From NCBI RefSeq assembly GCF_000271665.2, contig NZ_CP010978.1:342501-406500 (forward strand): 64,000 bases of DNA. The letters run 5' to 3'. The notes under the pieces are model-generated. The model made no database searches and was not told where the DNA came from. It was given only the letters and a program-made list of their open reading frames with translations. The stretch is from Pelosinus fermentans JBW45 (lineage in GTDB: Bacteria > Bacillota > Negativicutes > DSM-13327). The position numbers were made by a program, and so were the translations under genes. This document shows positions 17,760-57,411 of the stretch, in pieces (the first letter of the stretch is position 1; every line of letters starts with the position of its first letter).

Positions 17760-18020
17760 AGATTTAGCATCTAAGGCATTAGCATGGCGAGTCAAATTTA
17801 ATATAGAAGAATGACTTTTACAGTGTTTTCGAACGCCCCCAAGTGTCACATACGCCACCACTGTCCTATGAAATGTGCTTTACGATAGAAATTACCGAAA
17901 TTTACAATTAATAATTAGTACTCCAAAGGGGTATATTTCTAATGAATCAAATTTTACCAGCAGTATCCTATGGAATAAACGATAATTACATTTCAATCTT
18001 TGATTGTCTTTGGGAGGACT

Positions 18021-24000: not shown

Positions 24001-26345
24001 TTGTTTCCGAACTCGGCACAGGCTATACCTGGTGGCAGAGCAGCCGTGAGTGCAAACTGACCCCATGGTCTAACGATCCTGTGCTTGATCCGCCAGGTGA
24101 AATGTGTTATCTGCGGGACGAAGAGAGTGGCGAACTGTGGTCTACTGCACCAAGACGAGGGGACGACGGACAGGAGGACGGGTCTTCTGTCTTGAATTAC
24201 ACCGTTAACCATGGCAGGGGATTCACCTGTTTTAGTCATGAGGGACACGGTATCAGGAACGAAATGACTGTTTTTGTTCCCCAAGATGATCCCGTCAAGG
24301 TGATTCATTTGCGGCTACAGAATAAAAGTGCCGTGCAGCGGCATCTTTCCATCACCTATTATGCAGAATGGGTGATGGGTGTACAGCGGACGAAGAATGC
24401 TTCTTTCATCATCACGGAGTGGGATGATTCTGCCCGGTTACTACTGGCGCATAATGCGTATCAGGAGGAGTTTCAAGGGGCATGCGCCTTTTTAGGCTTA
24501 TATTCGCAAACGGAATCCTCTGTTAAGCCAACGGCGGATCTATCCTGGACGGCAGACCGCAGTGAATTTCTCGGTCGTAATGGGACTTGGGAGAATCCGG
24601 CAGCTATGGCCCGGGAACGCCTTTCAGGTCAAACGGGACCGCTTTATGATACCTGCGGCGTGGTACAGACCAAGCTCATACTAGAGCCTGGGGCCGAACA
24701 GACTATCTACATCCTGCTCGGCGCGGAACATTCCCGGGACGCCGCTGTGAAACTGGCTAAAAAGTACCACCAATCCCAAGTTTGCGATCAAGCTTTGGAG
24801 CATGTACGTAAATTCTGGGATGGTGTTTTGGAACAAATTTCGGTTTCCACGCCCTGTGTAGAGATGAATTTACTATTAAACGGTTGGCTCTTGTACCAGA
24901 CGCTTGGCTGCAGAATGTGGGCACGTTCCGCCTTTTACCAAGCGGGAGGCGCGTACGGCTTTCGTGATCAATTGCAGGATTCTCTGGCACTTCTGCACTC
25001 CCGCCCCGATTTAACACGGGCGCAAATTTTGCTGCATGCTGCGCATCAATATGAGGAGGGCGACGTGCAGCACTGGTGGCATGAAGAGACGCAGCGTGGC
25101 ATCCGCACGCGTTTCTCCGATGATTTACTATGGTTGCCGTATGCTGTCGGACGGTATGTCGAGCATACGGGAGACGACGGTATACTGGAAGAGTCGGTAC
25201 CATTTCTGTATAGCGAACCTTTATCGGAGGGTGAACATGAACGGTATGAGCCGACCCAAATATCTGCTCAAGAGGGCACTGTTTTTGAACATAGCTTACG
25301 TGCCATTGACAGAGCTGTGCAGCGCTTTGGCGAGCATGGACTGCCGCTGATCGGGATCGGCGACTGGAATGATGGTATGAGTCATGTCGGCGCTGAAGAC
25401 CGCGGTGAGAGTGTATGGCTTGGCTGGTTTCTCTGTGACGTGTTAAATCGGTTTGCGGATCTATGCCGACAGCGTGGTGCTATTGAGCGGGCGGAACGCT
25501 ACCTGGACGTATGCAGACAATTAGCAGCCTCTCTTGATAAGCATGCCTGGGACGGGCAGTGGTACCGACGGGCTTTCACCGACTCCGGACAATGGTTGGG
25601 TTCTATATATAATGAGGAGTGCCGTATCGACGCCATCGCACAGTCCTGGTCAGTAATTTCAGGGGCGGCGCCACAAGAAAAGGCACTGCAGGCGATGCAG
25701 TCATTCGACCGTGAGTTGGTGGACCGGGATCTTTCTGTTGCGCGTCTTTTAACACCGGCTTTTGACCGCACGAATCCGAGTCCCGGCTATATTCAGGGCT
25801 ACCCGCCCGGTATCAGGGAAAACGGAGCCCAGTATACCCATGGCGTTATCTGGAGTATTATCGCCTGGTGCGGCCTTGGTAACGGAGATAAGGCTTTGGA
25901 GTTGTTTCAACTGTTAAATCCTCTCAATCACACACGAACGCCTAATGAAGTACGGCAGTATGCAGGCGAACCTTACGCCATTGCGGCGGACGTTTATACG
26001 GCTGAACCGCACCAGGGGCGCGCTGGCTGGACCTGGTATACCGGTGCTGCCGGATGGATGTATCAGGCGGGAGTTGAGTCGATTCTCGGCCTTCGTCGCC
26101 GTGGTGACCGGCTGTACATTTGCCCGTGCATTCCTTGCGAATGGCCAGGGTTTTCCGTTAGCTACCGTTTTGGTAACAGTTCCTACCATATTACCGTTGA
26201 AAATCCGTCACATAAGTCCGCTGGAGCGATTGCTTTACAAATTGATGGACGGGAAGTTGCACTTACTGAGCAACACGTGAAGGATGGTCCTTACGTTAAA
26301 ATGCACGATGACGGGCAGCGCCATCAAGTTGTTCTGACGTTGTAA
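18021..26345 (+). CDS. Cyclic beta-1,2-glucan synthase (NdvB/Cgs type, GT84-GH94)
   Basis: 2774 residues from the ATG at 18021, chosen for the GGGAGG site 4 bases upstream. Order: N-terminal helical region; two membrane helices (about 405-450); GT84 glucosyltransferase with DADTELPLGSAQR near 616 and the KRMHRW motif near 763-767; membrane helices about 800-970; Glycoamylase-like (PF10091) domain with GVSESGYYAFDYQMNYQYR near 1303; carbohydrate-binding and GH94 phosphorylase domains with catalytic-type GDWNDGM (Asp2448). Known homologues build, cyclise and trim osmoregulatory periplasmic beta-1,2-glucans from UDP-glucose. Length and order are complete, so the chain is likely intact. No accessory ndv/opg genes adjoin it. 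Its GC content is visibly higher than its neighbours and it is flanked by repeats, suggesting acquisition. Confidence 0.93.
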   Translation: MLLNTEQLRQKAHELALTHDPYVRRWSSKRLWREFYNDIEELRTFIRSLQEGDASCLQPAEEWLLDHAEFIDEQVLVVRHQLPGAFLRNLPDLRKTGKTRILSICADYLEHVDGNLDEDSLVSYINSYQEVSVLTIAEVWAVPLILRITLIRRLTAVMELVRERREVCTLVDRLLARLQLAKLNPEVLKAALEEAGQDMLLSGCQIAYLVRRLREWADDSTTVREWLMCKLENGPDSLDRIVSYEYQLQAAYQVSTGNLMGSLRKISRLDWQDRFEQICMVEHTLRGESTGTYQLLDFSSRDVLRKRVEKLACRLHVPENLVAQQAVGLAAKEYEQAYTEQEKNDETTRGPVVLEEMPRQVFAAYYLLEADGVKELRNALKICGTPSHLPELEMLRRSTGTYFTALTGLFMVFLLGFAWWVSGGSSLTITQWVIVILALCLPVSEWAVTAAHWLIECVRQPRPLLRYDFSRGVPPDATTMVVIPVIWSTVKEVQELADRLELHYLANRYSNIHFALLGDFTDASEEKLPEDAAIHAAARASIEALNGTYSGPGGSTFHLFQRRRMWNPSEGVWMGWERKRGKLVEFVELLKGKTDTTYDFVVGETDVLPRIRYIITLDADTELPLGSAQRIIGTMHLPYNRPRLNHTRTRVVEGYGVMQPRIGISHNAALRSRFAYLWSVDPGIDPYVFAASDPYQDGLGQGIFTGKGIFDINAFAQVLCERIPENRVLSHDLLEGGFLRAGLLSDIELIDEHPAVFIAYQKRMHRWVRGDWQLIPWLLHSVPDRRGIFQPVDLSSLTRWQIIDNLRRSLLPTVQLAVLLLGMNILPGSSGRWVVFMVATLLLPLLRQLVAVRWIIGNSRSLLGTAAQVLVNIMIMPFQSVLLLDAIARTLYRLVVTKRHLLEWVSAAEVERRQRGGRYPVLMGMYGGYGVVFLFGLTVAASTVPVLRWIGLAFCILWAIAPFAVRWLNQPVQQPEQPLAANEQEELQKLSKEIWTFFEDYVTDKENWLPPDNVQLEPPNGIAHRTSPTNIGLYLTCTLTARDFGFIDTPGLIERLERTIGTVEHLDKWKGHLYNWYDTVTLEPLPPLYVSTVDSGNLVVCLVAVKEGVAEWLKSDLEGDGWSGANKVHGKTIETLHVAFAEELTPVRKGEAIDQYGTSHQSVREEWLYRGGKLLARVEALINETDFRPLYDHKAKLFHLGYNAGPGKPDPILYDLMASEARLSSFIAIALGQVSVSHWHALGRTMTRVGRRVTLLSWSGTMFEYLMPWLFMRTYPKTIWDSTYRGVVQRQIEYAHQRGVPFGVSESGYYAFDYQMNYQYRAFGVPGLGFKRGLEQDLVVAPYATILALPFAKQQGLQDLRRLDELGARGKYGYYEAIDFTSERLPKKQASKVICSFMAHHQGMSLLALANLLAPRKITERFHRDKRVRAAELLLQERIPARPKIIKHPAMAREYVSYKKPAEIVTLREYRSADTLAPEVCVLSNGTFTTTVTNSGSGFSRYEGLAISRWREDPVLDNWGSYIYIRDVTRDVVWSPAFQPCRVQSDEQRVQFALDRATFMRVDKDVQTSLEICVSPEWNAEVRRLTLTNTGNEEKIMEVTTFLELALASPMADDAHPAFSKLFIKTAYAEDGQCLLARRRPRRDDEKSLWAAHSLLTSGRTLGPVEYETDRASFVGRGHTLALPLGIRSRLRGTVGSVADPAFIMRRRMSIKPGEQVQLFAVTAVAGTKEEALEIVSRFSGDLVVERTFQLAWNRSQIEFQHLHLTAAQAMAFQTFAGRIVYTPMLRQERAQSILSNVKGQSSLWAYGVSGDVPMILVRIEDRVNMQLVVNLLTGHEYLRRLGLLFDLVIMNQSAEGYQQNLQETLRRAVEQVVGWHSPGPGGIFIINSSQLPEEDRTLLLATARVVLRADGPSFQAQSNLLRRAIAFPAPLKPTASVNRFAGPVTDNGEDLLFFNGWGGFSPDGREYRIVLKNGNYLPAPWINVLANPRFGCLVSELGTGYTWWQSSRECKLTPWSNDPVLDPPGEMCYLRDEESGELWSTAPRRGDDGQEDGSSVLNYTVNHGRGFTCFSHEGHGIRNEMTVFVPQDDPVKVIHLRLQNKSAVQRHLSITYYAEWVMGVQRTKNASFIITEWDDSARLLLAHNAYQEEFQGACAFLGLYSQTESSVKPTADLSWTADRSEFLGRNGTWENPAAMARERLSGQTGPLYDTCGVVQTKLILEPGAEQTIYILLGAEHSRDAAVKLAKKYHQSQVCDQALEHVRKFWDGVLEQISVSTPCVEMNLLLNGWLLYQTLGCRMWARSAFYQAGGAYGFRDQLQDSLALLHSRPDLTRAQILLHAAHQYEEGDVQHWWHEETQRGIRTRFSDDLLWLPYAVGRYVEHTGDDGILEESVPFLYSEPLSEGEHERYEPTQISAQEGTVFEHSLRAIDRAVQRFGEHGLPLIGIGDWNDGMSHVGAEDRGESVWLGWFLCDVLNRFADLCRQRGAIERAERYLDVCRQLAASLDKHAWDGQWYRRAFTDSGQWLGSIYNEECRIDAIAQSWSVISGAAPQEKALQAMQSFDRELVDRDLSVARLLTPAFDRTNPSPGYIQGYPPGIRENGAQYTHGVIWSIIAWCGLGNGDKALELFQLLNPLNHTRTPNEVRQYAGEPYAIAADVYTAEPHQGRAGWTWYTGAAGWMYQAGVESILGLRRRGDRLYICPCIPCEWPGFSVSYRFGNSSYHITVENPSHKSAGAIALQIDGREVALTEQHVKDGPYVKMHDDGQRHQVVLTL

Positions 26346-43592: not shown

Positions 43593-43620
43593 TTGTCATA
43601 ATTATCCTTTATAGTATAAA
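43593..43620 (+). promoter_or_regulatory. Promoter of the acyltransferase/PKS-NRPS locus
   Basis: TTGTCA at 43593-43598, 16-bp spacer, TATAAA at 43615-43620. It is the best promoter-like sequence upstream of the locus, and a second TTGTCA sits 11 bp before the first. Placement is consistent with transcription of the small frame at 43675 and the acyltransferase. Confidence 0.5.
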
Positions 43621-43674: not shown

Positions 43675-43764
43675 ATGATAAAAAAGAGAAAATGGATGGT
43701 ACAATCATCCAATTGTAATTTTTACTGGAATACTTATCATAAACTGAAGGAGGAATCGCTCTGA
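43675..43764 (+). CDS. Possible 29-residue leader peptide coupled to the acyltransferase
   Basis: ATG preceded by AGGAGG (about 12 bases) and by AAGG (closer). It encodes MIKKRKWMVQSSNCNFYWNT and nine further residues. Its TGA overlaps the proposed CTG start of the acyltransferase by two bases (CTGA), and the acyltransferase ribosome binding site GGAGGA lies within its last codons. Such an arrangement points to translational coupling. No known family. It may be a chance frame. Confidence 0.35.
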   Translation: MIKKRKWMVQSSNCNFYWNTYHKLKEESL

Positions 43765-44714
43765 GAAAACCTGTTGTATTTATGTTTTCGGGTCAAGGAT
43801 CTCAATATTATCATATGGGGAGAGAGCTATACGATCATAATGCGGTATTTAGACGTTGGATGTCAAAGTTAAACGACATTATATATCAAAAAGTCGGCAT
43901 TTCTATTACGGATGAAATGTATAATGAAGCCAAAAATATGGATGATAAATTTGATCATATTTTATATACTCATCCAGCCATTTTTATGGTGGAATATTCA
44001 TTAGCTCGCGTATTAATAGAAAGTGGGGTGGAACCTGATTATGTTCTAGGAGCAAGTTTAGGAGAGGTTACTTGCGCAGCAGTGGCGGGTATTGTTTCAG
44101 TAGAAGAAACGATAGAATGCCTTTTGAAGCGGGCAGAGTTAATTGAGAGTTATTGTGAATTTGGAAGTATGATAGCAATCATCCACAATTCAGAACTGTA
44201 TCATCAGGTTTCTTCTATTTCTCTGCATTCGGAATTAGCAGCAGTTAATTATTGTTCTCATTTTGTTATTTCCGGCGATAGTGAAAATTTATTGAAAATC
44301 GAAAAATATTTAACAACCAAGAATATTATCTTTCAAACACTCCCTGTGAGGTATGGCTTTCATTCTGCGAATATTGACTCTATAGAAAGTGAGTATAAAA
44401 AATTCTTACAGAATTTTTCATTTAAAAAACCCAAAATACCGGTTATATCATGTTTATTGAGTGATTATGTTACAGAAGTTTCTGCTGAATATTTTTGGGA
44501 TGTTTCTAGGTACCCAATTTATTTTCAAAAAACCATATTAAAACTCGAGAAAGATGCTCAGTTTAACTATATTGATTTAGGGCCATCGGGCACATTGGCA
44601 AACTTCGTAAAATATAATTTGCGAGAGGATTCTTTATCACAATTTTATGATATCTTATCTCCTTTCGGCCAGGATATAAAAAAACTTGAGGAAGTTGAAG
44701 AAATTTTTAATTAG
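43761..44714 (+). CDS. Free-standing acyltransferase (malonyl/acyl transferase fold) of the PKS locus
   Basis: 317 residues if translation starts at CTG 43761, which has GGAGGA 7 bases upstream and restores the conserved N-terminus RKPVVFMFSGQGSQYYHMG; starting at the first ATG (43782) would cut the first beta strand. FabD-like fold: GQGSQ loop, nucleophile in GASLGE (the usual His before the Ser is Ala), Arg in LLKRAELIE, and YGFHS. Free-standing acyltransferases load starters or extenders onto carrier proteins in trans, or hydrolyse stalled chains. The adjacent PKS has its own cis AT, so this one may be for starter loading or proofreading (inference). Ends 69 bp before the PKS-NRPS. Confidence 0.82.
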   Translation: MRKPVVFMFSGQGSQYYHMGRELYDHNAVFRRWMSKLNDIIYQKVGISITDEMYNEAKNMDDKFDHILYTHPAIFMVEYSLARVLIESGVEPDYVLGASLGEVTCAAVAGIVSVEETIECLLKRAELIESYCEFGSMIAIIHNSELYHQVSSISLHSELAAVNYCSHFVISGDSENLLKIEKYLTTKNIIFQTLPVRYGFHSANIDSIESEYKKFLQNFSFKKPKIPVISCLLSDYVTEVSAEYFWDVSRYPIYFQKTILKLEKDAQFNYIDLGPSGTLANFVKYNLREDSLSQFYDILSPFGQDIKKLEEVEEIFN

Positions 44715-44783
44715 CATGTAGCATCATCACCCTTGTACTTTTCACAGCAGAATCAATTAATTAAATGAAAAGAGGTAAAAAAT

Positions 44784-47700
44784 ATGAATCAACCAAAAAA
44801 TTATGAGCCGATTGCCATAATAGGTATGGGTTGCCGTTTACCAGGAGGTGCTAATGATCCTGAAGAGTTCTGGGAGATTCTCAAAAACGGTATCGATTGC
44901 ATTTCTGAAATTCCGTCAAACCGCTGGAAAGCATCAACTTTCTATAGTGCCAATAAAGAGATTCCAGGAAAACTTCTATCTAAATGGGGTGGGTATATTG
45001 ATGGTGTTGATGAATTTGACCCTACATTCTTTGGTATTACACCTCGGGAAGCAGAATATATGGATCCTCAGCAGAGAAAACTGCTGGAAGTAACATGGGA
45101 AGCATTGGAAGATGGAGGGCAAAAACCAGGAGAGTTAGCAGGAAAACCTGTTGGTGTTTTTATCGGGGCATTTACTTCTGATTGGAAAATATTGCAATGG
45201 GGTGGAAAGAGGCATGATAATCTTGCTGCTCATTCAGCTACTGGAGCCATGATGACAATGGTTTCAAATCGTATTTCCTATATTTTTGATTTCACGGGAC
45301 CAAGCATATCCTTAGATACAGCGTGTAGTTCTTCTCTGGTTGCCACTCATTTAGCTTGTGAAAGCTTACGTAGCAAAGAGAGCTCTATGGCTGTTGCAGG
45401 GGGGACACTATTGCAATTTGCCCCCCAATATACCATTGCTGAGTCAAAAGGCGGATTTTTATCGCCAACGGGATGGTCCCATGCTTTTGATTCGAGTGCT
45501 AACGGGTATACCCGTGCTGAAGGGGTAGGTGTAGTTATACTTAAACGGTTAAGTGATGCAATTAAGGATGGTGACCCCATTTATGCCACTATTATCGGTG
45601 ATGGTGCAAATCAGGATGGACATACCAATGGTATTACTGTTCCGAATGGCAAAGCTCAAGAGGAGCTGATTAAAACAGTATGTGCTAAAGCAGGGATACA
45701 ACCCGGAGAATTGCAATATGTAGAAGCCCATGGAACAGGCACCCCTGTTGGAGATCCCATAGAAGCCAATGCTATAGGAGCGGTGCTTGGTATAGGAAGA
45801 AAGTCTGGAGAAAAATGTTTTGTCGGTTCAGTAAAAACAAATATTGGGCATACGGAATCGGCAGCTGGTGTGGCGGCCTTGATGAAAGTGGCACTAAGCC
45901 TGAAAAATAACCAGATACCTCCTCACCTTCACCTTAAAGAGATAAATCCCAAGATAGAGATAGATAAATGGCCATATCAGATACCTACGAAGCTGGAGTC
46001 ATGGCCTGAACATGAAGGGGCGGCAAAGGCAGGTATAAATTCTTTCGGATTCGGTGGGACTAACTCCCATGTCATTTTACAAGAGCCACCCCTATCGACG
46101 ACTTTTGACAAGACTATCCTAGAGGTGAAGAGACCTAACATTCTGCCACTTTCTACTCGTGATTCGGAGATTTTACCAGATATAGCCCAAAAGTATAAAG
46201 AACTTTTGGAGAAAGCGAATGAGAGTTGTCCGGCGTTAAAAGATGTGGGATATACAGCAAGTATAAAACGTGAACAGCATGATCATAGAATGGCCGTGCT
46301 TTATTCTTCAAAAGAAGATTTGTTGCAGCAACTTAATATGTGCATTGCAGGGGAAGAAAGTCCTTCTATAGTGAAAGGTAAAAAGTGGGAAAAAAATAAG
46401 AGGAATCTTGTCTGGGTATTTACAGGAATGGGGCCACAGTGGTGGGCCATGGGTCGTGAGCTTTTTGAAAAGGAGCCTGTATTCCGTGAGGTAATAGTAA
46501 AATGCGACAGGGAAATGTCTAAATGGGTGGATTGGTCTTTGATTCATGAGCTAATAAATGTGAGTGAGAAAGAATCTCATATGGAAGAAACCTGGATCTC
46601 ACAGACAGCCAATTTTGCAGTGCAAATTGCTCTTGCCGCCCTCTGGCGTTCTTTGGGAATCACTCCTGATGCTATTGTAGGACATAGTACAGGTGAAGCT
46701 GCTGCTTTCTATGAAGCTGGTGTCTATACTCTTGAAGATGCTGTAAAGGTAATTGTGAATCGAAGCCGTCTGCAGCATACCGTCAGCGGGACAGGCAAGA
46801 TGGTTGCAGTAGGCCTTTCTGCAAGTGAGGCTGGACCTTTACTAGCACCTTATGGAGATAAGATTTCCATTGCAGCTGTCAATAGCCCGAATTCGGTTGC
46901 TATAGCGGGGGATGAAGCGGCTTTACGTGAGTTTATAAAACCACTGCAGCAGCAAGGCATTTTTTGCAAGTTTCTTCAGGTGCAAATACCCTTTCATAGT
47001 GCCTATATGGAACCTATTAAAGAGGAATTGTTGAGATCGCTGCATGATATAAAACCTCAAAAAACTAAAGTTGCCCTTTATTCAACGGCAATGGGGGCTG
47101 TTGTTGAAGGGACAGAGCTTGACGCTGCATACTGGTGGCAAAACGTAAGAGGAACTGTGCTGTTTACAAAAGCTATTGATCAAATATTGGATGATGGGTA
47201 TCGAGTGTTTCTTGAAATTGGCCCCCATCCCGTACTAGCTGGTTCTATATCTGAAGTTATGGTAGATAAGAAACAAGACGGCAAGATACTGTGCAGTTTA
47301 AGGCGAAAAGAGAAGGAACAGGAGAGAGTCTTTACATCTCTTGCAGAATTGTATGTTATGGGATTCCCTGTTAATTGGCAGACCTTATATCCAAATGGAA
47401 AGTTCACACGATTACCAACCTATCCATGGAGAAAAGATCGCTACTGGACAGAACCACGGGATATTGAGCAGGCTCGGTTAGGCCAGAAAGACCATCCTTT
47501 GCTTGGATTTCGTTTGTTTGCCCCTGAACCATCATGGGAGGAATCCATTAGTGCGGAAAAAATCACATATCTCAAGGATCACCAGATACAGGGAAGTGTA
47601 GTGTTCCCTGCGGCGGGATATATAGAGATGGCCTTTAGTGCTTTAAGTTCACTACTGGGAGCTGGAACCTTTTCTCTTGAAGGTTTTGAATTTAAAAAGG

Positions 47701-50700
47701 CATTATTCCTCCCCGAATCCCAGGAACCTAAGGCGCAATTCCTTTTAGATAAAGAACAGTCCACCTTTAAGATTGTTACTTATGAAGATGAAAACAATAC
47801 TGCTGTTTCTCATGCCTATGGTAAAGCACATGTTATTCAGAATACACAAATTGCACCGAAGATTGATATTGACGGGTTAAAAACGAAACTGGCAAACTAT
47901 ATGTCTGATAAGGAGTGTTATGAAAAACTGGGAGCGATGGGCTATCATTATGGATACTCTTTCCAAGGAATAAAAGATCTTTGGATCGGGGCAAATGAAG
48001 TACTGACAAAAATTCAAATGAAGGAAGAAGTTTTGGCGGACGCAGCAGGGTACTTTTTTCATCCTACGCTAACCGATGCTTGCTTTCAAACTTTGATCAC
48101 TGCTGAGTTTTCAAAATCCAGCAGTGCAGAACAAATGGCAATCAGGCTTCCGGTTTTTATTGAAAAGATCAGACTTACCCAAGGACATACAGGGCCAATA
48201 TGGGCATATGCCAGGATAACTGATAGTGACGTTCATAAATTGGTAGGGGATATCTATCTATATGATGAAGACGGAAATGCAATTGGTGAAATTAAAGGGT
48301 TTTTTGCTCAAGGGGTTGATCAGGCATCAGGTAATGCATCCTTGAGTACGATTGACAATTGGCTGTATGATGTACAGTGGCAGGAGCAAGAGCGCTCTAT
48401 AGTGGGGGAAAAGACTGAAAATATATCTGGTAAAGACAATAGTGGGTGGCTTATCTTTGCAGATAAACAAGGGGTGGCGGAAGAACTCTTAGGCTTATTA
48501 AAACAAAAGGGAGAGTATTGTTGCCTCGTTTATCCAGGAGACGGTATCACTATTAACAATAGTAATAGTTTAGCTACCGTTGCATCAGATACTGATGGTG
48601 AGGTCAGCAGTTTAATCAAAACCATTTTCAAAGATAAGAATAGAAAATGCAAAGGAATAGTCCATTTGTGGAATCTGGAGGCTCCCAGTCTTGAAAGTAT
48701 GGAGCTAGCCGATATAGAAAAAATAAAAAAATTGGGTTGTTATTCCATCTTGCAAATAGCTAGGGCAATTGGAGATCTGGAGATTCCTGCAAAACTTTGG
48801 ATTGTAACGCGCAGGGCCCAAGTTGTTGGTGAAGATACAGGTGATATATGCGCTGCAGCTTCGCCTGTATGGGGAGTAGGAAGAGTTCTTGGACAGCAGG
48901 AATTGGTAGGAAACTGGGGAGGCTTAATTGATCTGGACTCTGTTGCTAGCCCAGAGCGGCTAAAACAGGATGCTCTCAATGTATTTAATGAGATGATAAG
49001 TGGGGATAAAGAGGATTTGATTGCTTTTCGTGGTGAAAAGCGTTATGTGCCAAGGTTGCATTATGCATCAAACCTGACGAAGCCGCTGCCTACCCGATTC
49101 AGGAGTGACGGTTGTTATTTTATCACGGGGGCATTTGGTGCATTGGGACAATTGGTTGCGCGTACCATGGTGAAACACGGTGCAAGACGGTTGATACTTA
49201 TGGGCAGAACGAAAATCCCTTCCAGAGGGGAATGGAATACAGTTCAACCAGGAACCGGCAATGCTGAAAAAATCGCATTCATAAAGGAACTTGAATCCTT
49301 AGGAGCCGATGTACTTCTGGCAAGTGTGGATATTACGAATGAGTTGCAGGTGGCTGAGTATTTTAAACAATTCAAAGAAATGGGATATCCTCCAATTCGA
49401 GGCATAATCCATTCAGCTGGAACAGTAAATGATAAGTTTGTATCAAAAATGGATGCAAAAACATTTGATTCTGTTTACGATCCCAAAGTATATGGTTCCT
49501 TTTTATTACACAAATATCTTAAGGACGAACCGATTGAACACTTTGTATTGTTTTCATCTGTAGCCGACTTGGTAACAACGGCAGGACAAACCAACTATGC
49601 GGCAGGAAATGCATTTTTGGATGCTTTGGCGCATCATAGGCGGGCAAATGGTCTTCCTGCTCTGAGTATCAATTGGGGACCGTGGGCAACAGGAATGGTT
49701 AAGGAACTGGATTTAATTGAGCATTACAGGCTGCGCCGGGGAATGAACTGCATTCTTCCTGAAGTTGGAATGAATATTCTCGACAGGGTAATAGGACAGG
49801 ATGTTTCCCAGATCATGGTATGTGAAGTTGATTGGCCGCTGGCGCTTCCTTGGTATCCCTCGGAGCCGCCGCTATTCGCCCATCTTGCTAAAAAAGAAGA
49901 TAACAAAAATGATGGGGATAATGTAAGTTTTGAAATCTTGTTTAAAAATGCTGACGAAGCTTTTCGTAAGGTGATTGTAGAAGAACAGTTAACAGAGTTA
50001 ATTGCAAAAGTATTACGTTGTAAACCATCGCAGGTTGAGCCCAATAGCTCGCTGAATGCACTGGGTATCGACTCTATTATGGCTACGGAGCTTAGAAATA
50101 AGATTGCCTTCCATTTCGGACATTCTCTCACGATTGTGAAACTTTTAAGCGGCTCAACGATTATGCAACTTGCAGAAGCATTATTAGAAGGCTTAAGTGA
50201 ATCCATAGGGGAAGCTGAAAATGAAGCAGCGGCTGCGGTAACGGCTGAAGTAGCTGATGCTTGGGGACTTCTTGATTCTCTAGATCAGGCTGGAATTGGT
50301 GAGGAAGGGAAGGTGGTAGATGAATATCCTCTTTCCTACGGACAGAAAGCCATCTGGTTTATAAACCAGTTGCTACCAGATAGTCCCGCCTACAATATAG
50401 GCGGAAGCCTGCATATACCAGTCAAGATAGATATTGAAGCGTTACGCAAAGCTGTTAGAGAGGTGATTCAGCGACATCCTGGCCTGCGAACTAACTTTTT
50501 CATTAAAGGTGGAGAGCCTTATCAAAGAGTTTATGCTTCCAGGAAGGAAGAAATAGAAGTGGTTGATGTTCCGGGAATGGAGTGGAGCGACATCAGAAAG
50601 ATGGTAATTGCTGACAATCGAAAACCGTTTAACCTAGAGAAGGGATCCCTATTTAGGATTACATTATACAAGCAGTCTGAGCAGGACTATTACTTTGCCA

Positions 50701-53700
50701 TCAGCATATACCATGTTGTTTCAGATGCCTGGTCCAATTATATGTTCATTAATGAAATGCAGGAGCTCTATGAAAAATACGCCCTAGGTAAAATGGTTGA
50801 GTTACCACCTCCCACTGCTACATATAAGGATTTTGTCGAATGGGAAAACAGGTTTGTAAACAGCTCCAAAGGGATAAAGATGTTCAACTACTGGAGAAAT
50901 CATCTGCCGGAAGAAATGCCTATATTGAACTTGCCTACAGATAAGCCGCGTCCGGTGGTATTGACAAGTAATGGAGCTTCTTATGTATTTACGATAAATA
51001 AGGAATTGACACAGAGTATTAAGGACGTGTCCAAACTAACGGGAGCTACCGTTTACATGAATCTCTTAAGTGCCTTCTATATTCTGCTGCACAAATACTC
51101 CACACAGAATGATGTTATTATAGGTAGTCCTGTTGCAGGAAGGACGAATCCTGATTTATCAAAGGTGTACGGTTATTTCGTAAATCCGCTGCCCTTATGT
51201 GCCAGCTTTGAAGGAGATCCAACTTTCAAGGAATTATTAAAACAAGTTCAGGGTAGTGTTTTTGCAGGGTTGGAAAACCAGGAGTATCCTTTTGCCCTTC
51301 TGGTAGATCGACTGAGTCTGGAACATGATCCTAGCCGCTCGGCAATTTTTCAGGTGATGTTTGTTTATCTGGTACATAGGCTGGAGCAGGTCGGAGTAGA
51401 TGGAAATAGTATTGCTGCGGACGTTGCCTTACCTGTGCATTACCTTGCCATTCCGGAAGAGGAAGGTCAGTTCGATATTACCATGTCTATATATGAAGAA
51501 AATGGAGAATTCCACGGAGCATTTAAATACAACACCGATCTGTTCTATGAGGCTACCATTGCCAGGATGGCAGGACATTATAATGCTCTTTTAGAGGAAA
51601 TAATTGAAGACCCTGAGGCAAAGGTTTCAAAGTATAATGTGTTAACAAAAGAAGAAAGGGCTACCATTTTGGGACATTGGAGTGGTGGCAAGGGAGCATT
51701 TGCAACTGATTCTAGCATACATGCACTAATGGAAAAAGCAGCATCGCAAAAACCGAATAGCATAGCATTAAGCGTACCCTACGAAGATGGAAGGACGGAT
51801 TATCTTTCCTATGATGAATTGCATAGGAAGGCAAATCAGTTTGCCAGGTATCTGCAAAAGGTTGGGGTTAAGCCAAATACGGTTGTTGGAGTTTGTTTGG
51901 ATAAATCGACGGAACTGGCAGTATCCCTCCTGGCTATACTTAAGGCAGGTGGTGCATTTGTGTCATTAGATCCAAATTATCCGAAAGACAGGCTGACTTA
52001 TATCATGGATGATTCGGCCGCCCAGGTCATCATCAGTCATTCTTCGCTCAAAGAAGCATTGGATTGTGGAACCAGACGTACCATATGCGTAGATACCGAA
52101 CAGGCTAATATTGAAGGTGAGGAAGAAAACAACCTGGATAATATTAGTAAGCCCTCTGACCTAGCCTATGTTGTATATACTTCAGGATCTACAGGCCAGC
52201 CAAAGGGAGTCATGGTAACTCATCAAAGCTTTGTTTCCGTATATAAGGATTGGGAAACCGAGTTTCATCTGCTGGAAAAAACAAGCAGCCACCTGCAGAT
52301 GGCCAGCTTTTCATTTGACGTATGTTACGGGGACTTTGCAAGGGCTCTTTGCTCAGGAGGTAAGCTGGTGTTATGCCGCAGAGAGATAATGCTCAACATT
52401 CCACTTTTGTATGAAATTATGGTAGCGGAGAAGGTGGATTGTGCCGAGTTTGTCCCTTCCATCATAAGAAACCTGATAAAATTCATGAAGTCTGCCGGAA
52501 AAAAACTTGATTTTATGAACCTTGTGATTGTTGGATCTGACACATGGACGGTTGACGAGTTTAGTTGGCTGAAGTCTTACTGCGGGGAAAATACTCGTGT
52601 GATTAGCTCCTATGGATTAAGCGAAGCCACGATTGACAGCACCTACTTTGAAGGAGATGTTGAATTTTTTGAAAGTGGCAGCACGGTGCCTATTGGAAAA
52701 CCGCTCCCGAATACACAAGTATTCATTTTGGATCCATTTATGAATCCTGTGCCTGTAGGTATACCAGGTGAATTATATATAGGCGGCGCAGGTCTAGCTT
52801 TGGGATATATCAATAAGCCGGAGTTAACAGAGGAAAGATTCATACTACATTCTATAAATGGCCAATCCCCAATCCGGCTTTACAAGACAGGAGATATGGC
52901 AAAATGGGATGTATCGGGAAATATCCATATCTTACAGCGTGTGGACAACCAGATAAAAATAAGAGGATATCGCGTGGAGCTTGGTGAGATCGAAAAACAT
53001 TTAACAAATTGCCCAGGTATAAGCAAAGGGGTTGCCGCCGTTAAGAATGATAAGAATGGGGATAAGGTGATTTGTGCTTATTACATCCCTTCCGTCAGTG
53101 AGGTAGACAAGAAATTGATACGTGGTATGTTAAGTGAAGTGCTGCCAAGTTATATGATACCTTCCTACTTTATACAGGTAACGCAGTTTCCTCTGTCACA
53201 TAACGGGAAGGTGGATATAAATGCTCTGCCATTGCCGAATTATACAGAGGAGAGTGAAGTTGTAAGTGAACCTCAAACAATATATGAACTGAGGGTGGCT
53301 CAAGTCTGGAAGAAGATTTTAGGTGTACGTAAGGTAGGACTGCAACATGATTTCTTTAATCTGGGTGGTAACTCACTCTATTTGGTAGAATTAATGATTC
53401 ACTTACAAAATGAGTTTAAGATTAAGATTAACGTAAGTCAGTTATTTAAAGCATCTAGTCTGGGAGATATGGCAAGGGTAGTCGAGAATATTGTTACTGG
53501 TAAGGAAAAAGGAGCCGAGCCGTATATCGAGTATAATCCCTCAAGAAAAAGGGTAGTGTACTCTTTTCCGCCTGCCGGAGGGTACAGTCTGGTCTATAGT
53601 AGTATGGCTGACAGTATGAATGATGTTACATTCGTGTCCTTTAATTACATGATGGAGCAAGATAAGATTAAGCGTTATGCGGACATGATTCAAAGCTATG

Positions 53701-54188
53701 AGAAGGAAGGTCCGTATATACTGCTTGGTTATTCCTTGGGTGGGAACCTTGCCTTTGAAGTTTGCAAAGAACTTGAAAACAGGGGTAAAGAGGTTTCTAA
53801 TGTGATTATCATGGATTCGTACAGGATTGATGGAACCTTTGCTCCTACTGATGAAGATATGAAAAAATTTGAAGTGGAGTTAGCCGAGCATTTCAAAAGA
53901 CATGTAGGTTCAGCAGTAGTGCAGGAACATACTCTTGATCAGGCTAAAGATTTTATCAATTTTTGCTATGAAACCATGAATAAGGGGACGGTAAAATCTA
54001 AGGTACATTTTATTATTGAAGAGAACTCTAGTGATCCGCATAGAACGAAGCGGGAATCAAGTTGGGATGGAAGTTCACAAACCTCAGCTACTCTCTACCA
54101 AGGTGTAGGTAAGCATGAAGAGATGCTGGATAAGACACTTGTACGCGAAAATGCTAATATTGTCCGTACTATACTTGAAGCGCTCTAA
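44784..54188 (+). CDS. Hybrid PKS-NRPS, KS-AT-DH-KR-ACP-C-A-PCP-TE
   Basis: 3134 residues, start supported by AAAGAGGTAAAAA. KS 9-430 with Cys181-His316-His356; AT about 535-830 with GHSTGE (Ser635) and PFHS (His738), malonyl-like; DH about 890-1180 with DHQIQGSVVFPAAG (His933) and HPTLTDACFQ (Asp1098); structural region; KR about 1440-1625 with TGAFGALG and Tyr1605; ACP Ser1764; condensation domain about 1850-2280 with YHVVSDA (His1977, Asp1981); adenylation domain about 2320-2790 with YTSGSTGQPKG; PCP Ser2864; thioesterase about 2930-3134 with GYSLGG (Ser2984). All key residues seen. One protein would thus extend an acyl starter by two carbons, make it alpha,beta-unsaturated, join it to one amino acid and release it. 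No enoyl reductase, methyltransferase, loading domain or phosphopantetheinyl transferase is present. Ends in a strong terminator. Confidence 0.95.
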   Translation: MNQPKNYEPIAIIGMGCRLPGGANDPEEFWEILKNGIDCISEIPSNRWKASTFYSANKEIPGKLLSKWGGYIDGVDEFDPTFFGITPREAEYMDPQQRKLLEVTWEALEDGGQKPGELAGKPVGVFIGAFTSDWKILQWGGKRHDNLAAHSATGAMMTMVSNRISYIFDFTGPSISLDTACSSSLVATHLACESLRSKESSMAVAGGTLLQFAPQYTIAESKGGFLSPTGWSHAFDSSANGYTRAEGVGVVILKRLSDAIKDGDPIYATIIGDGANQDGHTNGITVPNGKAQEELIKTVCAKAGIQPGELQYVEAHGTGTPVGDPIEANAIGAVLGIGRKSGEKCFVGSVKTNIGHTESAAGVAALMKVALSLKNNQIPPHLHLKEINPKIEIDKWPYQIPTKLESWPEHEGAAKAGINSFGFGGTNSHVILQEPPLSTTFDKTILEVKRPNILPLSTRDSEILPDIAQKYKELLEKANESCPALKDVGYTASIKREQHDHRMAVLYSSKEDLLQQLNMCIAGEESPSIVKGKKWEKNKRNLVWVFTGMGPQWWAMGRELFEKEPVFREVIVKCDREMSKWVDWSLIHELINVSEKESHMEETWISQTANFAVQIALAALWRSLGITPDAIVGHSTGEAAAFYEAGVYTLEDAVKVIVNRSRLQHTVSGTGKMVAVGLSASEAGPLLAPYGDKISIAAVNSPNSVAIAGDEAALREFIKPLQQQGIFCKFLQVQIPFHSAYMEPIKEELLRSLHDIKPQKTKVALYSTAMGAVVEGTELDAAYWWQNVRGTVLFTKAIDQILDDGYRVFLEIGPHPVLAGSISEVMVDKKQDGKILCSLRRKEKEQERVFTSLAELYVMGFPVNWQTLYPNGKFTRLPTYPWRKDRYWTEPRDIEQARLGQKDHPLLGFRLFAPEPSWEESISAEKITYLKDHQIQGSVVFPAAGYIEMAFSALSSLLGAGTFSLEGFEFKKALFLPESQEPKAQFLLDKEQSTFKIVTYEDENNTAVSHAYGKAHVIQNTQIAPKIDIDGLKTKLANYMSDKECYEKLGAMGYHYGYSFQGIKDLWIGANEVLTKIQMKEEVLADAAGYFFHPTLTDACFQTLITAEFSKSSSAEQMAIRLPVFIEKIRLTQGHTGPIWAYARITDSDVHKLVGDIYLYDEDGNAIGEIKGFFAQGVDQASGNASLSTIDNWLYDVQWQEQERSIVGEKTENISGKDNSGWLIFADKQGVAEELLGLLKQKGEYCCLVYPGDGITINNSNSLATVASDTDGEVSSLIKTIFKDKNRKCKGIVHLWNLEAPSLESMELADIEKIKKLGCYSILQIARAIGDLEIPAKLWIVTRRAQVVGEDTGDICAAASPVWGVGRVLGQQELVGNWGGLIDLDSVASPERLKQDALNVFNEMISGDKEDLIAFRGEKRYVPRLHYASNLTKPLPTRFRSDGCYFITGAFGALGQLVARTMVKHGARRLILMGRTKIPSRGEWNTVQPGTGNAEKIAFIKELESLGADVLLASVDITNELQVAEYFKQFKEMGYPPIRGIIHSAGTVNDKFVSKMDAKTFDSVYDPKVYGSFLLHKYLKDEPIEHFVLFSSVADLVTTAGQTNYAAGNAFLDALAHHRRANGLPALSINWGPWATGMVKELDLIEHYRLRRGMNCILPEVGMNILDRVIGQDVSQIMVCEVDWPLALPWYPSEPPLFAHLAKKEDNKNDGDNVSFEILFKNADEAFRKVIVEEQLTELIAKVLRCKPSQVEPNSSLNALGIDSIMATELRNKIAFHFGHSLTIVKLLSGSTIMQLAEALLEGLSESIGEAENEAAAAVTAEVADAWGLLDSLDQAGIGEEGKVVDEYPLSYGQKAIWFINQLLPDSPAYNIGGSLHIPVKIDIEALRKAVREVIQRHPGLRTNFFIKGGEPYQRVYASRKEEIEVVDVPGMEWSDIRKMVIADNRKPFNLEKGSLFRITLYKQSEQDYYFAISIYHVVSDAWSNYMFINEMQELYEKYALGKMVELPPPTATYKDFVEWENRFVNSSKGIKMFNYWRNHLPEEMPILNLPTDKPRPVVLTSNGASYVFTINKELTQSIKDVSKLTGATVYMNLLSAFYILLHKYSTQNDVIIGSPVAGRTNPDLSKVYGYFVNPLPLCASFEGDPTFKELLKQVQGSVFAGLENQEYPFALLVDRLSLEHDPSRSAIFQVMFVYLVHRLEQVGVDGNSIAADVALPVHYLAIPEEEGQFDITMSIYEENGEFHGAFKYNTDLFYEATIARMAGHYNALLEEIIEDPEAKVSKYNVLTKEERATILGHWSGGKGAFATDSSIHALMEKAASQKPNSIALSVPYEDGRTDYLSYDELHRKANQFARYLQKVGVKPNTVVGVCLDKSTELAVSLLAILKAGGAFVSLDPNYPKDRLTYIMDDSAAQVIISHSSLKEALDCGTRRTICVDTEQANIEGEEENNLDNISKPSDLAYVVYTSGSTGQPKGVMVTHQSFVSVYKDWETEFHLLEKTSSHLQMASFSFDVCYGDFARALCSGGKLVLCRREIMLNIPLLYEIMVAEKVDCAEFVPSIIRNLIKFMKSAGKKLDFMNLVIVGSDTWTVDEFSWLKSYCGENTRVISSYGLSEATIDSTYFEGDVEFFESGSTVPIGKPLPNTQVFILDPFMNPVPVGIPGELYIGGAGLALGYINKPELTEERFILHSINGQSPIRLYKTGDMAKWDVSGNIHILQRVDNQIKIRGYRVELGEIEKHLTNCPGISKGVAAVKNDKNGDKVICAYYIPSVSEVDKKLIRGMLSEVLPSYMIPSYFIQVTQFPLSHNGKVDINALPLPNYTEESEVVSEPQTIYELRVAQVWKKILGVRKVGLQHDFFNLGGNSLYLVELMIHLQNEFKIKINVSQLFKASSLGDMARVVENIVTGKEKGAEPYIEYNPSRKRVVYSFPPAGGYSLVYSSMADSMNDVTFVSFNYMMEQDKIKRYADMIQSYEKEGPYILLGYSLGGNLAFEVCKELENRGKEVSNVIIMDSYRIDGTFAPTDEDMKKFEVELAEHFKRHVGSAVVQEHTLDQAKDFINFCYETMNKGTVKSKVHFIIEENSSDPHRTKRESSWDGSSQTSATLYQGVGKHEEMLDKTLVRENANIVRTILEAL

Positions 54189-54227
54189 GACTCCCATCTT
54201 CTACAAATGGGAGTTAAGAGCGACTAA

Positions 54228-54259
54228 GATTCAGATGGAGTTAAAACTCCATCTGAATC
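54228..54259 (+). terminator. Strong terminator after the PKS-NRPS
   Basis: A 15-bp perfect stem GATTCAGATGGAGTT/AACTCCATCTGAATC with a two-base loop, followed by AAGTTTTCTTT. A smaller hairpin ACTCCCAT/ATGGGAGT precedes it at 54190-54214. The next gene may depend on read-through or its own promoter. Confidence 0.85.
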
Positions 54260-54332
54260 AAGTTTTCTTTATAAAATTTGAGGTGATCATTAGTTAGATT
54301 AAAGAAAAACAAGAAATAAAGGGGAGAAAATT

Positions 54333-55886
54333 TTGGAGAAAAATGAAAAATCAATAATTATTATCGGTGCAGGTATTTCAGGCATGTCTGCTGGTTGTTA
54401 CGGTCAAATGAACGGTTATAAAACAAAGATATTTGAAAGTCACTTTATACCTGGTGGCTGCTGCACTGCATGGGAACGTAAAGGTTACGTTTTTGATCAG
54501 TGTATAGACTGGCTGTTAGGAACAAAGCTAGGTACTGACATGAATCAGGTATGGCGGGAACTGGGAGCATTAAAAAATAAAAAACTACGATTTTTTAATA
54601 TGTTTAACCGGGTAGTGGGGCGAGAGGGGCAAAGTGTTACTTTTTATGTAGATCCTAATAGGCTGGAGGCTCATTTGAAAGAAATATCTCCGGAAGATGG
54701 GGAGTTAATAGAAGAATTTTGTAACGGTATCCGGGCTTTTTCAGGAGATATGAATTTTCCTTTATTAAAGCCGGAACCCTTATATAATGAGAATGAAAAT
54801 AAAGAAATAGAGGAAAAATTTATAAAAAAATATGGCAAAGCACTTAGGGATAGTACAGGAATTGAGATTGTCGATTTCGCAAAACGTTTTAAGAATCCTT
54901 TCTTACAAGAAGCTTTTCCATATATATTACAGCAAAAAATGTGTGATTTTCCGTTGATGCCCTATTGCTATAATTTAGCTGCCATGTGTGAAAAAAATGC
55001 GGGATATCCTGAAGGTGGTTCATTGGAATTAGCAAAATCAATAGAAAGACGATACACGGAACTTGGTGGTGAAATTGTCTATGAAGCACCTGTAAAGAAG
55101 ATACTAGTGGAAAATGATAAAGCTATAGGGGTAATGCTTGAAGACGGTACGAAGCATTACGCAGACATTGTCTTATCTGCTGCTGATGGGCGTACAACTA
55201 TTTTTGACATGCTGGATGGTAAATATGTGGATAATACAATTAAAAAATTGTATGAGGGCTTACATAGCAGAGAGAATAAAATATATGAAGGATTTGTATT
55301 GGTTTTCCTGGGAATTAATCGAGATCTCACTAATGAACCAGATAGTACTACCTATTTTTTGGAACATCCATCTAAACTCCTTGGTTGTAACCAAAAAGGT
55401 ATAGTTGCGCGGCATTATTGCCATCATGCTCCTGAATTTGCTCCATCAGGTAAATCGGTAATGCAATTTTTCTATTATTCAGAGTATGATTGCTGGAAAA
55501 AATTATACGATAATGATAGAGCTGCTTATAAAGAGGAAAAAGGAAAAGTCGCCGACTTTATTATCAACTATATGGAGCAGCATTATCCCGGTTTAAAGGA
55601 TCAGATAGAGGCTATAGATGTTTCCACGCCTGTGACGGCAGTACGTTATACAGGGAATCACGAAGGATCGGTTATGGCATGGATACCCTTTGCCGATACA
55701 GAAGAACATGTCAAACCCTTAGTAGAAAAACATCATATGAAGCTGCCTGGTTTAAGCAATTTCTATATGGCCGGTCATTGGGTTTCTTTAGGAGGACTGG
55801 TACGTTCTAGTTCATCGGGGCGGCATGTGATTCAATTTGTTTGCAAGGACGATAAGAAGAATTTTGTAGCACAACTTGCCGACTAA
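54333..55886 (+). CDS. Phytoene desaturase/CrtI-like NAD(P)/FAD-dependent oxidoreductase
   Basis: 517 residues from a TTG start at 54333, with GGGGAG seven bases upstream; no in-frame ATG is better placed. N-terminal dinucleotide-binding motif SIIIIGAGISGMSAGCYGQ with Glu at the strand 2 end (IFESHFIPGGCC), flavin-binding segment GYPEGGSLELAKSIERRY near residue 230, and C-terminal NFYMAGHWVSLGGLVRSSSSGRHVI. It belongs to the large amine oxidase/CrtI/carotenoid isomerase superfamily. It directly follows the PKS-NRPS in the same direction and is the natural candidate for an oxidative or desaturating tailoring step on the product. A carotenoid role is less likely as no crt genes are near. Confidence 0.85.
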   Translation: MEKNEKSIIIIGAGISGMSAGCYGQMNGYKTKIFESHFIPGGCCTAWERKGYVFDQCIDWLLGTKLGTDMNQVWRELGALKNKKLRFFNMFNRVVGREGQSVTFYVDPNRLEAHLKEISPEDGELIEEFCNGIRAFSGDMNFPLLKPEPLYNENENKEIEEKFIKKYGKALRDSTGIEIVDFAKRFKNPFLQEAFPYILQQKMCDFPLMPYCYNLAAMCEKNAGYPEGGSLELAKSIERRYTELGGEIVYEAPVKKILVENDKAIGVMLEDGTKHYADIVLSAADGRTTIFDMLDGKYVDNTIKKLYEGLHSRENKIYEGFVLVFLGINRDLTNEPDSTTYFLEHPSKLLGCNQKGIVARHYCHHAPEFAPSGKSVMQFFYYSEYDCWKKLYDNDRAAYKEEKGKVADFIINYMEQHYPGLKDQIEAIDVSTPVTAVRYTGNHEGSVMAWIPFADTEEHVKPLVEKHHMKLPGLSNFYMAGHWVSLGGLVRSSSSGRHVIQFVCKDDKKNFVAQLAD

Positions 55887-55964
55887 TCATTTTTACTGTC
55901 ATCTGCCTCGCCGAACAGTTCCAATGAGACAGGTATAAGCGTTCGTGTTGCCGAAGATTGCGAG

Positions 55965-56002
55965 AACTCCTGCAAAGTTCAAGATTGAATTTTGCAGGAG
56001 TT
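55965..56002 (+). terminator. Terminator after the FAD oxidoreductase
   Basis: AACTCCTGCAAA at 55965-55976 pairs with TTTGCAGGAGTT at 55991-56002, followed by TTGTCTGTT. Confidence 0.8.
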
Positions 56003-56037
56003 TTGTCTGTTAATTAATTTAGAACCTAAGGGTTTTA

Positions 56038-56223: not shown

Positions 56224-57411
56224 ATGAAGAAATTGTTTTTAATATTAATGATCATTATTCTTGCTAATTCTGGATTTATGACTAGCGCAAATGCAGCTGC
56301 TTTAGAAACAAGGGAAGACTTTGGGATTCAAAAGTACGGGACTTATAAGACAACAGTAACTGCGGTATCCTCAAAATTAATGCAACAATACAATATTCCT
56401 GGGGCTGCTATTACTGTAATTGATGGCGATCAAACTTACACTTATCTATTCGGCAGCATGAATCAGGCAAATGGCAAGCCTGTTACCGAAAACACAATCT
56501 TTGAGGTTGGTTCAATTACTAAATTATTTACAGCTTTGCTTTGTGCTGAAGCTGAGGATAACGGCAGTATGAAGTTATCTGACCCGTTAACTGACTATTG
56601 TCCGGAATTTACCGACAACAATTCGGCATCATCACAAATTTCCGTAATTAATTTACTTACGCATACCGCCGGTTTTCCATTGAATTTGTCCGAACAAATT
56701 ACCAATAAGGCTAAAACAGCAGAATATTTGTCCACATGGCAGCCGGAGAAAGCTATCGGCTGCCAATGGCAATATTCTAATGTAGGCATTGGCTTAGCAG
56801 CTATGGTCTTAGAAAAACAAAATCATAATTCTATAAACGAATTAATTAAAGAAAAGATACTGTTGCCGTTAGCCATGACACCATTAGGAATGGAAGTTGC
56901 AGAAAAATATCAGGCTAATTACGCTCAGGGCTATTCTGCTGAAGGTAAAACAGCCCCACATTTCGATTATGGTCATGCTCCTTTCCCTGGTGCATATAGC
57001 CTCAAAGCTACAATCAGCGATATGTCTAAATTTTTAGCAGCTGCTGTCGGCTTGTCTAATACGCCGGAGAATATCAAAAAAGCTATGCACAATACTCAAA
57101 CGCCGCGCGTTGACATTGGCAGCATGCAGCAAGGTCTAGTTTGGCAAGTACATTCCCTGCAAGATGACAATTTAAAGCACGAACCAGAAAATCTCAACTT
57201 AGGACCACTGCCTGTTAATTGGTTACCTAAAGAGCAGCAGATCTATAAGACCAATGTACTATTGGATAAAACCGGCGGAACAGGAGGCTTTAGAAGCTAT
57301 ATTGCCATTATTCCTGAAAAAAAGCTTGGGGTAGTCATTCTGTTGAATAAATATATTCCTAATGGTGCTATTGTGACTGCTGGTAGAACTATTATTGGGA
57401 TTGGGGAATAA
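56224..57411 (+). CDS. Class C-type serine beta-lactamase / penicillin-binding-like hydrolase
   Basis: 395 residues with a signal peptide (KKLFLILMIIILANSGFM, cleavage near SANA). All three active-site motifs of class C beta-lactamases are present: SITK (FEVGSITKLFTALL), YSN (WQYSNVGIG) and KTG (LLDKTGGTGGF). Length matches AmpC. The role is hydrolysis of cephalosporins in the periplasm; related enzymes are peptidases or esterases, but motif order and spacing favour beta-lactamase. Start has TAGGGGAT upstream. Possible BlaI-type operators and a small upstream frame precede it. It sits at the edge of the PKS-NRPS region but need not be linked to it. Confidence 0.88.
   Translation: MKKLFLILMIIILANSGFMTSANAAALETREDFGIQKYGTYKTTVTAVSSKLMQQYNIPGAAITVIDGDQTYTYLFGSMNQANGKPVTENTIFEVGSITKLFTALLCAEAEDNGSMKLSDPLTDYCPEFTDNNSASSQISVINLLTHTAGFPLNLSEQITNKAKTAEYLSTWQPEKAIGCQWQYSNVGIGLAAMVLEKQNHNSINELIKEKILLPLAMTPLGMEVAEKYQANYAQGYSAEGKTAPHFDYGHAPFPGAYSLKATISDMSKFLAAAVGLSNTPENIKKAMHNTQTPRVDIGSMQQGLVWQVHSLQDDNLKHEPENLNLGPLPVNWLPKEQQIYKTNVLLDKTGGTGGFRSYIAIIPEKKLGVVILLNKYIPNGAIVTAGRTIIGIGE

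Follow-up and report, generated by a model that had tools for sequence, protein, structure and literature searches.

Polycyclic tetramate macrolactams (PTMs) such as HSAF, ikarugamycin, frontalamide and alteramide are made by iterative synthases that put two polyene chains on ornithine. In the papers found, their sources are Actinobacteria and Proteobacteria; PTM-like architectures have also been noted for Verrucomicrobia, Planctomycetes and Bacteroidetes, and the domain order KS-AT-DH-KR-ACP-C-A-PCP-TE has been named the PTM hallmark (PMC10308959). In PTM chemistry the outer ring is attributed to PhyDH and the inner ring to an ADH (PMC11724479). We found no report of PTM loci from Bacillota in the open-access literature, and reports outside that scope are possible. 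In a survey of Clostridium PKSs, one KS clade contains both HSAF-type systems and C. acetobutylicum (PMC3250452); considered as a prior report of an HSAF-type system in Clostridium, its text states none.

The locus described here lies in a window (the whole stretch of DNA that was analysed) of 64,000 nucleotides from Pelosinus fermentans JBW45, and it very probably encodes a minimal PTM pathway of the HSAF/ikarugamycin type. Its features, in window positions and with the basis of each call, are the following.

43675..43764, + strand: 29-codon ORF, possible coupling peptide (sequence reading)
43761..44714, + strand: acyltransferase-fold protein of the trans-AT acyl-hydrolase (PksD) lineage, CTG start (Pfam Acyl_transf_1)
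44784..54188, + strand: PTM-type PKS-NRPS, predicted iterative, 3134 aa (uninterrupted ORF; Pfam; homology; tree)
KS: residues 8-384 of the synthase (Pfam)
AT: residues 543-860 of the synthase (Pfam)
DH: residues 904-1176 of the synthase (Pfam)
KR: residues 1443-1635 of the synthase (Pfam)
ACP: residues ~1730-1813 of the synthase (Pfam)
C: residues 1846-2295 of the synthase (Pfam)
A: residues 2317-2675 of the synthase (Pfam)
PCP: residues 2837-2899 of the synthase (Pfam)
TE: residues 2925-3024 of the synthase (Pfam)
52317..52637, + strand: first nine A-domain pocket residues (residues 2512-2618) of DVGEVVSIDK, ornithine type
54228..54259, + strand: intrinsic terminator between synthase and FAD enzyme, 14-bp stem and T-rich tail (fold z -6.1)
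54333..55886, + strand: CrtI/phytoene-desaturase-like FAD enzyme, predicted PTM cyclase, PhyDH (Pfam; orthologues; tree)
about 55963..56004, + strand: intrinsic terminator at the end of the locus (fold z -7.6)

The synthase and its relatives

A sequence-only reading of this DNA had described one KS-AT-DH-KR-ACP-C-A-PCP-TE protein of 3134 residues with its catalytic residues present, adjoined by a free acyltransferase-fold gene and a CrtI-like FAD gene. These observations were borne out: the ORF is intact and agrees with the Pfam domain order, the whole set lies in one monomodular protein as is typical of PTM synthases, and both neighbouring genes were found with Pfam. Re-reading the catalytic residues in a motif alignment with two homologues showed them to be present in every domain, with KS C/H/H, AT GHSTGE (malonyl-type), DH H and D, the KR Tyr motif, both carrier serines and TE S/D/H all kept. 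The C-domain motif is YHVVSDA as against HHxxxDG, the first His being replaced by Tyr and only the second His kept, and the same replacement is found in four PTM relatives including Pseudoalteromonas and Colwellia PTM loci.

The same reading knew of no described product with such an arrangement, a statement that is wrong, since the arrangement is the signature architecture of PTMs (PMC10308959, PMC11724479) and the synthase groups with PTM synthases. Three homologues came from a tblastn search of plasmid records with a 3000-aa query; they are colinear with it over 97-100% of its length at 44-46% identity, and by domain the identity is 66-68% for KS, 55-56% for AT, 54-61% for KR and 45-47% for C and A. 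The annotated Streptomyces NBC_01471 locus carries a sterol desaturase, the synthase, two FAD oxidoreductases and a P450, and that of Eleftheria terrae a sterol desaturase, the synthase, two FAD oxidoreductases, an NADP-dependent oxidoreductase and a ferredoxin reductase, an organisation described for PTM clusters in PMC11724479. The N-terminal part of the Eleftheria terrae synthase is out of frame and the synthase gene unannotated; it is also unannotated in the NBC_01237 PTM locus, where the whole record has one annotated feature.

An alignment of the FAD enzymes, scanned against 84,980 species genomes, gave 182 relatives of which 80 were kept, and 82 loci were examined. PhyDH-like ORFs are present in all 82, with a PTM-type synthase alongside in nearly all. 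The three nearest relatives among those kept are all Bacillota (Clostridiaceae bacterium M8S5, the MAG AS06rmzACSIP_96 and Heliobacterium chlorum), labelled anaerobes from their taxonomy, and their synthases are colinear with the one in the window at 51-64% identity over the available length. In a tree of the C-A region built by a quick method, a branch with support of 100 separates 22 PTM rows, including that of the window, from 17 other NRPS rows taken from the source genome, its class and one plasmid. The synthase is thereby grouped with 21 PTM synthases, the reference loci being PTM by gene content rather than accessions of characterised pathways.

The A-domain pocket is completed by a tenth residue, Lys 2809. 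The pattern DVGE[VLM]V[ST][IV]DK fits the pocket in 22/22 PTM rows and in 0/17 of the other NRPS rows, and Pseudoalteromonas, Streptomyces hainanensis and Kineosporia share the exact code DVGEVVSIDK. Ornithine was assigned to the PTM synthase of S. albus on DVGEIGSIDK (PMC3992020), with which the present code agrees at 8/10 positions. On these shared positions ornithine can be predicted, and the A domain probably activates this diamino acid. Together, the grouping with PTM synthases and the ornithine-type pocket therefore lead us to expect an iteratively made polyene tetramate macrolactam derived from ornithine, from a locus of the HSAF/ikarugamycin/frontalamide type whose product is predicted from sequence.

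The acyltransferase-fold protein

An acyltransferase gene had been placed in the stretch from 43675. The gene is there but its start is elsewhere, as 43675 opens the 29-codon ORF in a different frame. The acyltransferase frame has a stop at 43740, homology runs from CTG 43761, which aligns with the TTG starts of 11/11 class relatives, and the next in-frame start, ATG 43782, would cost the first beta-strand. The 29-codon ORF has a purine-rich stretch of its own upstream and its TGA stop overlaps the CTG start of the acyltransferase-fold gene (CTGA).

Among solved structures, the best match of the protein is to PksD, the acyl hydrolase of the bacillaene system (8avz, E 8e-92; alignment of residues 2-313). 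The protein has the acyltransferase fold with the GASL motif and C-terminal extension expected of acyl hydrolases, a catalytic pair Ser99/His201, and the hydrolase pocket residues Gln12, His71, Phe200 and His201. Two paralogues in the source genome are 70% and 61% identical, each with a second AT immediately downstream and, within a few kilobases after that, a large PKS-containing ORF; these trans-AT-type PKS loci lie at C1:52000-71000 and C1:1006000-1025000. DNA similarity to the 70% paralogue is 77% over 978 bases and sets in at the ribosome-binding site, which suits a gene copy, and dN/dS between the two is about 0.19, so that the gene appears to be under constraint. Judged by its sequence, the protein is of the PksD lineage, its gene having been copied inside the source genome, and was recruited from a trans-AT system. 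It had been proposed to supply the starter; this proposal, and with it the role of a loading AT, was rejected on account of the PksD lineage and the paralogues heading trans-AT-type PKS loci, and the gene was not found beside the synthase in the loci of the three Bacillota relatives.

Residue 124 is Arg, encoded by CGG; the 70% paralogue has CAG there, and Gln occupies this position in all 15 relatives that were checked (11 from the class and 4 from plasmids). In acyl hydrolases the lack of Arg at the FabD Arg117 position has been called diagnostic, PksD having Gln124 (PMC11775670). PksD/PedC hydrolases are moreover encoded in trans-AT PKS clusters, and here the neighbour is a cis-AT PTM synthase. 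Because of Arg124 we do not file the protein as an acyl hydrolase, nor do we file it as a loading acyltransferase; it may edit carrier proteins or have acquired a changed specificity through Arg124. A second specificity change, V249S, was considered and rejected, since another Gln124 relative has Ser at that position.

It is quite possible, although we lean against it, that this is an ordinary acyl hydrolase serving one of the trans-AT PKSs of the genome, lying here by chance and outside the PTM pathway. The PksD-like fold, motif, extension and pocket would all suit such a role, and PksD strongly prefers trans-AT carrier proteins (PMC11775670). However, the arginine occupies the very position used to recognise hydrolases and conserved as Gln in every relative checked, the Q124A change abolishes PksD activity, and the gene immediately precedes the PTM synthase in the same orientation, the terminator scan listing none in the gap.

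The FAD enzyme and the predicted pathway

A phytoene-dehydrogenase-like flavoenzyme lies downstream of the synthase, as in PTM clusters, and is 72% identical to its orthologue in Clostridiaceae M8S5, 61% to that of the MAG and 60% to that of Heliobacterium chlorum. In a careful PhyDH tree of 64 rows the clade made up of the four Bacillota orthologues (99/97) has as its sister a branch (100/99) containing both canonical PTM cyclase groups. The three other Bacillota have a second, more divergent PhyDH that branches earlier still in the same tree; it is absent from the source genome, where the sole match of the search was the window's own enzyme. Further Bacillota genomes also encode CrtI/PhyDH-like enzymes (35-42% identity); the stretches read there contained no PTM synthase.

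PF04116 (FA_hydroxylase, sterol-desaturase-type) and PF00067 (P450) were found neither in the source genome nor in the three Bacillota relatives, controls being positive, and the locus contains no accessory ADH of the IkaC type, sterol-desaturase hydroxylase or P450, genes that are variable in PTM clusters and do not define them. By these searches the locus belongs to a Bacillota lineage without the sterol-desaturase-type hydroxylase and P450 steps. Their absence from four genomes fits anaerobic life, and an oxygen-independent PhyDH is not implied by it.

Terminators had been marked at 54228 and 55965, and hairpins were recovered at both places; given the strength of the first, the synthase and PhyDH may differ in their level of expression. 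The promoter marked at 43593 gained no support from a consensus scan, which as a whole was no richer than shuffles.

The observed parts of a PTM pathway are the domain order, the catalytic residues, the pocket code, the grouping with PTM synthases and the adjacent cyclase homologue. From these we infer iteration, two chains, ornithine, a tetramate and ring formation. The KS-AT-DH-KR-ACP set would be reused to make two polyene chains from malonyl units, and the C domain would couple both to the two amino groups of the activated diamino acid, probably ornithine. The TE would then release the product as a tetramic acid, and the CrtI-like FAD enzyme would form one or two carbocycles from the polyenes. 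Malonate elongation, ketoreduction, dehydration, capture of an amino acid, release and action of the FAD enzyme on the product had already been proposed and, as predictions, are judged right. One PhyDH and no ADH nearby would most simply give a mono- or bicyclic product, and for want of an IkaC-type ADH in the neighbourhood and of the second PhyDH in the genome the ring system itself is unpredictable.

Counting against a PTM pathway are the identity of 41-48% to aerobic PTM synthases, the missing ADH and second PhyDH, the terminator before PhyDH and the Tyr in the C motif. The single PhyDH, the lack of an ADH nearby and the Tyr in place of the first His would also suit a PTM-derived synthase whose end product is a single-chain ornithine tetramate, with no second acylation and no macrolactam. 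We consider this quite improbable, as the PTM loci of Pseudoalteromonas and Colwellia have this Tyr too and, by known PTM logic, PhyDH works on the released polyenes and the second acylation does not depend on it (PMC11724479). Even less credible is the product first proposed, an alpha,beta-unsaturated acyl-amino acid or simple lactam extended once per chain from a starter delivered by the free acyltransferase: it takes the single-module architecture as non-iterative and leans on the free gene that lies 69 bases ahead of the synthase in the same orientation, whereas the synthase groups with iterative PTM synthases that have the same pocket code and the free protein is of hydrolase lineage and absent beside the Bacillota synthases.

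The minimal PTM pathway is the reading that we prefer. A bolder version of it, which we offer as speculation and think rather unlikely, would give these Bacillota an early-branching, oxygen-independent PTM form in which a pre-duplication PhyDH cyclises the polyene alone, and in the present species a recruited hydrolase would have become malonyl-handling through the Gln-to-Arg change, for editing or loading of a cis-AT iterative synthase.

Genome context and comparison with known systems

Synthase and PhyDH searches of 380 class genomes found no second PTM locus; only the source genome had a PhyDH at E 1e-60 or better, and only there was a 2695-aa synthase query matched over its full length. 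In the nearest congener found, DNA similarity of 92.6% over the TetR and OYE genes ends at window 43518, just before the locus, and nothing of window 43.5-64 kb was found within the next 13 kb of that contig. On this comparison the locus sits in a species-variable segment and was likely gained by transfer. The OYE, TetR and crotonase genes at 39.4-43.4 kb were rejected as pathway genes, the nearest congener having TetR and OYE without the PTM locus, and by-eye reading recognised no OYE gene beside the synthase in the Bacillota relatives. Elsewhere in the window, a probably secreted PF00144 (beta-lactamase-fold) protein lies directly downstream (56224-57411, + strand) and is absent from seven congeners, and a GH94/cyclic beta-glucan synthase-like protein of 2781 aa (18000-26345, + strand) has 84% DNA identity in the nearest congener.

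Like the HSAF, ikarugamycin, frontalamide and alteramide systems, the locus has a single synthase with a GHSTGE AT and an ornithine-type pocket, followed by a CrtI-like enzyme. It differs from them in having one PhyDH of a lineage outside both canonical groups, a synthase at 41-48% identity, no IkaC-type ADH, sterol-desaturase hydroxylase or P450, and an acyl-hydrolase-lineage gene upstream. With Clostridiaceae M8S5, H. chlorum and the MAG AS06rmzACSIP_96 it shares a colinear synthase (51-64%), the PhyDH (60-72%) and a genome free of the hydroxylase and P450, although those loci have the extra divergent PhyDH and no free acyltransferase-fold gene beside the synthase. The acyltransferase-fold protein resembles PksD/PedC in its fold, GASL motif, Ser99-His201, His71 and C-terminal extension, and in having paralogues that head trans-AT-type PKS loci, but it has Arg124 in place of Gln124, a cis-AT synthase as its neighbour, and a CTG start where its class relatives have TTG. 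With its Gln124-to-Arg change it would be a ready, naturally occurring test case for the residue reported to distinguish acyl hydrolases from acyltransferases. Taken together, the locus appears to be a variant of the known PTM architecture, in a Bacillota lineage with a predicted cyclase outside the canonical groups. As this cyclase branches before the canonical split, the lineage would serve as a naturally minimal setting in which to study the contribution of a single PhyDH and whether oxygen is required for ring formation.
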